In this document: piece by piece, positions 44,703-46,009 of the stretch
How positions within the stretch are numbered: position 1 is the stretch's first letter
Layout: each line of letters begins with the position of its first letter
IMG/VR virus record: IMGVR_UViG_3300009174_000247
Location: 1 to 50,574 of that record
Source: a virus
Direction: 5' to 3' (one strand)
Length of the DNA: 50,574 nt
Made by a program: the position numbers and the translations under genes
Notes under the pieces: generated by a model
The model's database searches: none
What the model was told of the DNA's origin: nothing
What the model saw: only the letters and a program-made list of their open reading frames with translations

Positions 44703-44964
44703 ACTGAAGCTTCAGAGCGGTAGAACCTATCGCGGCAAGCGCCCACGCAACACTATGGGGTTGGTTAACGACAGAACGATCCTGCATATCGGCGCTACCA
44801 CCGTGCAATACGACAGCCCATCCGTTTCTTTCGGGCGACATTACCCATCAGTCAGTCGCGAGAAGTTCTTGGCTTGGGCTGAGCGGGATGTGACCGATGA
44901 ACTGCCTGCTGGCGAGTTCGCTACATGGCCTATTGGCAGCGCTAGGGAGGTGGAGCGTGGGTAA
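44689..44964 (+). CDS. Hypothetical protein before methyltransferase
   Basis: 91 residues from the ATG at 44689, with GGAGG seven bases upstream. LQSGRTYRGKRPRNTMGLVNDRTILHIG and REKFLAWAERDVTDELP; no motif known. It overlaps the methyltransferase start by eight bases and the ASCH-like gene by 14 bases. Confidence 0.65.
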   Translation: MPANELKLQSGRTYRGKRPRNTMGLVNDRTILHIGATTVQYDSPSVSFGRHYPSVSREKFLAWAERDVTDELPAGEFATWPIGSAREVERG

Positions 44965-46009
44965 AGCCTACTACAACGAAATCGACCCATACGCTGCGCA
45001 GTGGCTGCGCAACCTGATAGCCGCCGGCCATATCGCGCCTGGTGATGTTGATGAACGCTCGATCGAGGATGTGAAACCTGATGACCTACGAAACTACACA
45101 CAATGCCATTTCTTCGCCGGGATCGGAGTCTGGTCATATGCCCTCCGCAACGCAGGATGGCCTGACGATAAACCGGTCTGGACAGGTTCTTGTCCGTGCC
45201 AACCTTTCAGCGCGGCAGGCAAAGGCAGCGGGTTTGATGATGAGCGGCACTTGTGGCCTCATTTCCATTGGCTCATCAGCGAGTGCCGACCTCAGCACAT
45301 TTTTGGCGAGCAGGTTGCAAGCGGCAACGCAAATGCTTGGTTCGACCTTGTACAAGCTGACCTGGAAGCAATGGACTACGCCTTCGGGCTTGTCCCGTTT
45401 CCGTCTGCGGGCGTCGGCGCTCCGCACATCCGAGATCGAGCGTACTGGGTGGCCCACCCCAACAGCGAACGATTACAAGGGCAGCGGCCCAACAGTGATC
45501 CGGAAAGATGGCAAGGATCGGACGTTCGACAGACTGGATTATGCGACAGAGCAGGGTTTGCTAACGGGGTGGCCGACCCCGAACGCCAGCAACACGAAGA
45601 ATGCCTATCAGGATTGGCAGAAGGTATTAGCGAGGAAGGAGGCAGGAAGGCAGTCAAACCTACAGGACTTCGCTTGCCTTACAGGCTGGCCGACACCAAC
45701 AACAATCGACAACAATCAGGTTCGCGGGGAAGCTGCGGCGGCGAATGCTCCACAGAGGGGGACAACCATCGGGGGAGCTGCGAGATTGACGCTCAATTGC
45801 CCAGCCCGACTAACGGTTTTTGGCGTGATGCTGACTGGTTGCTCTGCCGGGATGAAAAGTGGCGGCCAGTTAGACCCGGCTCATTCCCGCTGGTTGATGG
45901 GGCTACCGCAAGAGTGGGACGACTGCGCGCCTACGGTAATGCCATCAACGCGGAAGCGGCAAAAATCTTCATAGCCGCTTATTTGGAGGCCCAGCATGAT
46001 CGCCGCTAA
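44957..46009 (+). CDS. DNA cytosine-5 methyltransferase
   Basis: 350 residues from a GTG at 44957 (GGGAGG seven bases upstream). Motif I FAGIG (53-57), motif IV SCPCQPFS with catalytic Cys81, motif VIII HIRDRAYW, and a C-terminal RLRAYGNAINAEAAKIF with motif X. The motif VI Glu is present as FGEQV rather than ENV. It methylates cytosine in a specific sequence, probably to protect phage DNA from restriction. A second reading frame, 45081-45974, runs through the whole second half (listed separately). Confidence 0.92.
   Translation: MGKAYYNEIDPYAAQWLRNLIAAGHIAPGDVDERSIEDVKPDDLRNYTQCHFFAGIGVWSYALRNAGWPDDKPVWTGSCPCQPFSAAGKGSGFDDERHLWPHFHWLISECRPQHIFGEQVASGNANAWFDLVQADLEAMDYAFGLVPFPSAGVGAPHIRDRAYWVAHPNSERLQGQRPNSDPERWQGSDVRQTGLCDRAGFANGVADPERQQHEECLSGLAEGISEEGGRKAVKPTGLRLPYRLADTNNNRQQSGSRGSCGGECSTEGDNHRGSCEIDAQLPSPTNGFWRDADWLLCRDEKWRPVRPGSFPLVDGATARVGRLRAYGNAINAEAAKIFIAAYLEAQHDRR
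45081..45974 (+). CDS. Overlapping ORF inside methyltransferase gene
   Basis: A 297-codon frame, one base out of register with the methyltransferase, opens with MTYETTHNAISSPG and contains GWPTPTANDYK, GWPTPNASN and GWPTPTTIDNN, then a C-terminus GQLDPAHSRWLMGLPQEWDDC. Such sequences, including the same start, are annotated in other phages as far as I recall, and LMG-P-W recalls the end of certain phage methyltransferases. No convincing ribosome site is visible. Whether it is translated is uncertain. Confidence 0.42.
   Translation: MTYETTHNAISSPGSESGHMPSATQDGLTINRSGQVLVRANLSARQAKAAGLMMSGTCGLISIGSSASADLSTFLASRLQAATQMLGSTLYKLTWKQWTTPSGLSRFRLRASALRTSEIERTGWPTPTANDYKGSGPTVIRKDGKDRTFDRLDYATEQGLLTGWPTPNASNTKNAYQDWQKVLARKEAGRQSNLQDFACLTGWPTPTTIDNNQVRGEAAAANAPQRGTTIGGAARLTLNCPARLTVFGVMLTGCSAGMKSGGQLDPAHSRWLMGLPQEWDDCAPTVMPSTRKRQKSS

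Follow-up and report, generated by a model that had tools for sequence, protein, structure and literature searches.

The question raised by this locus is whether a second, long reading frame inside a phage cytosine methyltransferase gene is itself a gene and, if so, what its product contributes. The window analyzed is the whole stretch of DNA, 50,574 nucleotides, of IMG/VR record IMGVR_UViG_3300009174_000247; coordinates refer to the window, and all features described in it are on the + strand. The source is a temperate phage of Enterobacterales, judged by its relatives (Erwinia phage vB_EhrS_59; a P22-type CI-like repressor region).

Two overlapping reading frames

The outer gene, alpha (44957..46009), has a GTG start and encodes a C5-cytosine methyltransferase subunit of 350 aa. 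It is preceded by a strong Shine-Dalgarno (SD) sequence, GGGAGGTGG (44945-44953), and the anti-SD duplex of the start has an energy of -13.0 kcal/mol. Residues 75-174 match PF00145 (E=6e-13), residues 3-347 match phrog_363 (E=5e-95), and features expected of PF00145 members were identified (the PCQ of motif IV, an ENV-like motif VI, a QxRxR-like motif VIII and the GN of motif X). Motif IV (SCPCQPFS; 45188..45211), which contains the expected catalytic cysteine, is invariant or nearly so in a 92-row alignment (A2). Also present are motifs VI (FGEQV) to VIII (GAPHIRDR) at 45302..45439, and motif X (RVGRLRAYGNAINAEAA; 45911..45961), which aligns with motif X of single-chain methyltransferases. 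We did not find motif IX in the alpha frame; it sits in the +1 frame instead.

The motifs of alpha do not follow the canonical order I-II-III-IV. A motif II-III block (YYNEIDPYAAQWLRNL...GDVDERSIEDV; 44969..45073) lies ahead of motif I (FFAGIGVWSYALR; 45110..45148). In profile alignments, alpha from residue 3 onward corresponds to single-chain relatives from residue 26 onward, with alpha motif I falling in a gap, and a sub-profile of alpha residues 46-72 aligns with residues 9-23 of canonical-order relatives. Read along 44969-45211, the order is the II-III block (YYNEIDPYAAQWL...GDVDERSIEDV), motif I (FFAGIG) and then directly motif IV. Natural permutations reported elsewhere are of another kind, with motifs IX and X ahead of I-VIII (PMC5944983).

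The nested frame, beta, runs from ATG 45081, which is codon 42 of alpha, to a stop at 45974 (297 codons, +1 relative to alpha; ORF listing). The preliminary description had drawn attention to this frame and to its repeated WPTP motifs, which we confirm at 45450, 45570 and 45687. A +1 frame of this length arose in 35 of 20,000 synonymous recodings of alpha and in 66 of 20,000 permutations of its own codons. With a chance rate of 0.2-0.3%, the long frame is suggestive when judged from this single sequence.

Conservation of the nested frame and selection on both frames

Homologues were collected from 160 IMG/VR loci, half fetched with the alpha protein as query and half with the beta protein. Each of the 132 distinct alpha homologues has the +1 frame open over more than 70% of the length of alpha. 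Among the other four alternative frames, +2 is never open that long and only one of the three reverse frames is, in 2% of cases; thus, chance is ruled out. An opening by chance or codon bias arises in one sequence at the rate given above, but is next to impossible as an account of frames open throughout the homologues, depleted in stops and with beta omegas of 0.2-0.35. Beta is also in +1 relative to alpha at 85 of 86 scored loci in a GTDB genome set that includes a few phage records fetched alongside. At two loci (L163 and L215), the alpha frame is broken in or near the dual-coding or linker region while beta is intact; these breaks may be sequencing errors, or alpha may be made there as two pieces.

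Stops in the +1 frame are strongly depleted relative to synonymous recoding. Only one sequence has a +1 stop in codons 42-79 (45080-45193; 1 of 130 homologues, 64.6 expected) and none has one in codons 94-165 (117.8 expected), whereas stops in the +2 control are near expectation (126 versus 120.8 and 133 versus 131.2, respectively). Upstream, in codons 5-40, +1 stops occur in 124 sequences (123.2 expected). Because stops are as expected there and depleted from codon 42, we place the start of beta near codons 38-42. A start codon is present at 38 or 42 in 129 of 133 homologues, with no single one conserved in all. The preliminary description had found no clear ribosome site. This holds only in part, as a weak SD-like GAGG (-6.5 kcal/mol, compared with -13.0 kcal/mol for alpha) is present 12 nt upstream of ATG 45081 (45065..45068).

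A TTG-ATG-ATG cluster at 45234..45242, with AAAGG upstream, is a possible internal second start of beta, although the model proposed below does without it. TTG is found at this position in 123 of 133 homologues, with a mean anti-SD energy of -6.6 kcal/mol. TTG 45234 was favored early as the beta start, given its good SD and the constraint beginning nearby, and was demoted because stop depletion shows translation from about codons 38-42. The conservation of TGCCARCCTTTCAGC was also considered as a frameshift site, an SD-sequestering hairpin or a +2-frame leader; these candidates were set aside, as beta coding explains it well enough.

Selection on each frame was estimated from 53 independent pairs, in which NN, NS, SN and SS changes were counted, with the pooled SS rate as the omega baseline, SS sites being few. 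Over codons 5-79 alpha is constrained (omega 0.06-0.11) and the beta sequence is nearly free (0.76-0.83). The first 38 codons of beta (45081..45194; omega 0.76, 0.59-1.02) are kept open yet are free to vary, as are its last residues. Constraint on beta sets in sharply at alpha codons 80-81, with a conserved N-terminal part (RANLSARQAK...LGSTLYKLTWK..TPSG..FRLRAS.RT; 45195..45449). Across codons 80-165, which encode alpha motifs IV-VIII, both frames are constrained (beta about 0.3, alpha 0.16); for the dual-coding stretch from motif VI to VIII, the values are 0.16 (0.12-0.23) for alpha and 0.34 (0.27-0.45) for beta. Codons 166-285 (45452..45811) encode an alpha linker that is open but neutral (0.92, 0.74-1.20) and a constrained part of beta, its variable or recognition region (0.31, 0.20-0.49). 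Both frames are again constrained over codons 286-322 (beta 0.21, 0.16-0.29; alpha 0.18), and over codons 323-342, which hold motif X, only alpha is (0.09, compared with 0.87 for beta).

Purifying selection on beta spans about 45194-45922, with dual constraint over about 45236-45451 and 45812-45922, and a codon-position profile agrees with these omegas. The +2 control omega is lowered too in regions 3-6 (0.39-0.52), because constraint on beta slows the third positions of alpha; therefore, the +1 frame was judged jointly with stop depletion. We conclude that the 297-codon frame is a real, conserved gene. Overprinting, one of two suggestions in the preliminary description, is borne out by constraint on both frames and by the stop-free +1 frame of the homologues; the other, a fossil, is contradicted by current purifying selection on beta. 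The frame survived the tests that had been named there, namely a search for stops in homologues and for synonymous behavior matching the methyltransferase frame only.

Division of motifs between the two frames

Beta matches phrog_1008 (E=7.3e-37) and phrog_31772 (E=3e-34), two families that carry the label DNA methyltransferase. Sequence comparison of beta with Pfam and PDB returned no significant match. AlphaFold2 gave no confident fold for beta alone (pLDDT 61.6), and Foldseek with this model found no significant structural match. Beta is linked to known enzymes by single-chain relatives from actinobacterial phages (Mycobacterium phage Rita type), in which one frame encodes the core, a set of [L/W]PTP repeats, motif IX (FSEWMMGWP) and motif X. 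In the numbering of one of these (L290), alpha residues 3-174 align by profile with residues 26-165 (E=1.8e-19), positions 74-228 of the beta fragment used align by hhalign with 194-343 (E=1.4e-7), and the motif X stretch at 350-378 is matched by the alpha C-terminus, in an alignment that is weak by itself. The order of alignment is alpha (I-VIII), beta, alpha (X), so beta carries the part missing from alpha between VIII and X. The earlier comparison of beta to a methyltransferase C-terminus was therefore apt, since beta aligns with the VIII-to-X region of these relatives. Its WPTP repeats (45450..45698), variable and presumed to form the target-recognition region, align by profile with the [W/L]PTP repeat region of the single-chain proteins, and motif IX (LDPAHSRWLMGLPQEWDDC; 45870..45926) aligns by hhalign (E=1.4e-7 over beta profile columns 74-220). 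In contigs related to the single-chain type, the FSEWMMGWP motif lies in the +1 frame instead; thus, both layouts occur within one family.

Enzymes of this class made of two chains are known. M.EcoHK31I and M.AquI are natural two-polypeptide C5 methyltransferases, and artificially split ones have also been described (PMC3404938). In M.EcoHK31I, motifs I-VIII and X are on alpha and motif IX is on a separate small polypeptide, and in M.AquI the large subunit has I-VIII and the small subunit has the distal variable region and IX (PMC3404938). Given the division of motifs at our locus and these natural and artificial precedents, a division of labor between alpha and beta is proposed. We consider it probable (at roughly 0.88) that a DNA (cytosine-5) methyltransferase made of two polypeptides is encoded here, each read from its own frame of the same DNA. 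Alpha would supply the SAM-binding and catalytic core (motifs I-VIII) plus motif X. Its middle 120 residues would be a neutral linker, open only because beta occupies the same DNA. Beta would start independently, most likely at ATG 45081, and would supply the variable WPTP-repeat region for target recognition and motif IX. A single mRNA would serve for the translation of both chains, and these would assemble into one active enzyme, which may methylate a specific cytosine site, presumably shielding phage DNA from host restriction. This protective role is suggested by what is generally known of phage methyltransferases. The alpha segment opposite motif IX is constrained (omega 0.18), and alpha possibly has a role in that part of the enzyme as well.

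Alpha could instead be a complete methyltransferase by itself, with beta a regulator or an unrelated overprinted protein of other function. The constrained alpha segment (WLLCRDEKWRPVRPGSFPL) just before motif X and the lack of a Pfam family for beta are in keeping with this reading, but in single-chain methyltransferases it is the recognition-IX region to which beta aligns, and the middle region of alpha is neutral. In addition, Mycobacterium phage Hades has an alpha without room for a recognition domain, because it is only 237 residues long, and a +1 beta with a recognition-like region and motif IX. We regard a self-sufficient alpha as improbable.

Alternatively, a programmed +1 ribosomal frameshift near motif VIII could append the C-terminal part of beta to alpha, so that I-VIII, the recognition region and IX end up in a single chain. 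Single-chain relatives show the same order of modules, and natural in-frame fusions of the alpha N-terminus to the beta C-terminus occur at two loci (L221 and L383). However, beta is stop-free from codon 42 and constrained in sequence from codon 80, well upstream of motif VIII, and a shift after motif VIII requires neither; a shift before codon 80 would cost motifs IV-VIII. The frameshift product would also be without motif X, yet motif X is constrained in alpha. The fusion at L221 differs from its near-identical unfused counterpart (L021) around a run of seven G, so that an indel error or degeneration of this copy may account for it. A frameshift is thus very unlikely, and two separately initiated chains are preferred.

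If the same bases do encode both halves of an active enzyme in two frames, neither frame can evolve without being limited by the other. The locus would then allow overprinting, and the origins of split enzymes, to be tested in an unusually clean setting.

Known systems, variants and annotation

By sequence, the pair resembles M.EcoHK31I (YGGCCR)/M.EaeI, with motifs I-VIII and X in alpha and motif IX in beta. The nesting of a small subunit inside the gene of the large one, in another frame, is also found here. Lee, Kam and Shaw (1995) reportedly located the coding sequence of the M.EcoHK31I small chain within the alpha gene but in a different frame, and activity is said to need both chains. The recognition domain of M.EcoHK31I, compared by description, is reported in the large subunit, whereas here the variable region is constrained in beta and neutral in alpha. 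In a further difference, an unsystematic look near our locus revealed no restriction partner. M.AquI has motif X in the small subunit, whereas here it is constrained in alpha only. An M.AquI-like division, though overlapping, is seen in Gordonia phage GordTnk2 (L251:979-1850), where alpha ends after motif VIII (179 aa), the +1 frame holds IX and X, and alpha alone is annotated. To our knowledge, nesting of the M.AquI genes in different frames has not been reported. The two chains here belong to the phage 'DNA methyltransferase' families phrog_363 (alpha) and phrog_1008/phrog_31772 (beta), and together they have the modules of the Rita gp76 type of single-chain actinophage methyltransferase, in which all are in one frame and in canonical I-X order.

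Motif IX on a second chain was already known from M.EcoHK31I, as, reportedly, was the nesting of that chain. New here are the widespread and probably ancient occurrence of the arrangement in phages, selection on both frames, and the location of the presumed recognition region in beta, opposite a neutral stretch of alpha. Our literature searches returned no paper that describes such nesting in phage methyltransferases or treats the pair as one enzyme.

The arrangement extends to alpha proteins of canonical motif order. In an independent family typified by Paenibacillus phage Kiel007, motif IX is in +1 in 51 of 52 scored sequences, with 1 +1 stop (50.6 expected) over motifs IV-VIII and 2 (36.7 expected) over the linker. 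Nesting is also found in Bacteroides phage BKO1-TP3 and in Mycobacterium phage Hades. It is likely that frame-split C5 methyltransferases, with the recognition region and motif IX in the nested frame, form a large, ancient and mostly unrecognized class in phages of Pseudomonadota, Bacillota, Bacteroidota and Actinomycetota, and that some lineages moved between split-frame and single-chain forms. If so, many phage 'Dcm' annotations cover half an enzyme.

Most records annotate just one of the two frames. Alpha only is annotated in N15 (gp58), BcepC6B (gp33) and the E. coli RefSeq record inspected, and the PMG1 record has beta only, as a hypothetical protein. Two overlapping methyltransferase CDS are annotated in the PhiXhv-28, K1H and Kiel007 records. 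Gene-calling programs that report a single frame at each locus discard either the catalytic half or the recognition half. Phage genes of this kind could then test falsely negative when cloned, and forecasts of whether a phage resists restriction would be wrong.

Several loci depart from the common layout. The fusion in a Klebsiella michiganensis prophage (L221:2224-3333) joins the alpha N-terminus and the beta C-terminus in one frame and agrees with the unfused L021 to 98% over the core fragment and 94% over the beta fragment; the difference may reflect an indel error, a decayed copy or a switching site. AlphaFold2 gave this fusion a pLDDT of 62.0, with no confident fold beyond the catalytic core, for which the best structural match is HhaI (Z 10.7 over 142 residues by VIA-align, only the core being covered, so that the lack of a match elsewhere carries no weight in either direction). 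In a Paenibacillus contig (L383), a deletion fuses motifs I-VIII in frame to the WPTP and IX part of beta, without motif X. In a Pseudodesulfovibrio contig (L218:2215-4120), two methyltransferase genes that differ in type lie side by side, and both contain a beta-like +1 frame. EBPR siphovirus 2 (L256:802-2331) has an intein-like sequence in the alpha frame directly before motif IV (ending ...DGDESYTVDGIVVHNCQPFS), as if an intein had been inserted ahead of the catalytic cysteine.
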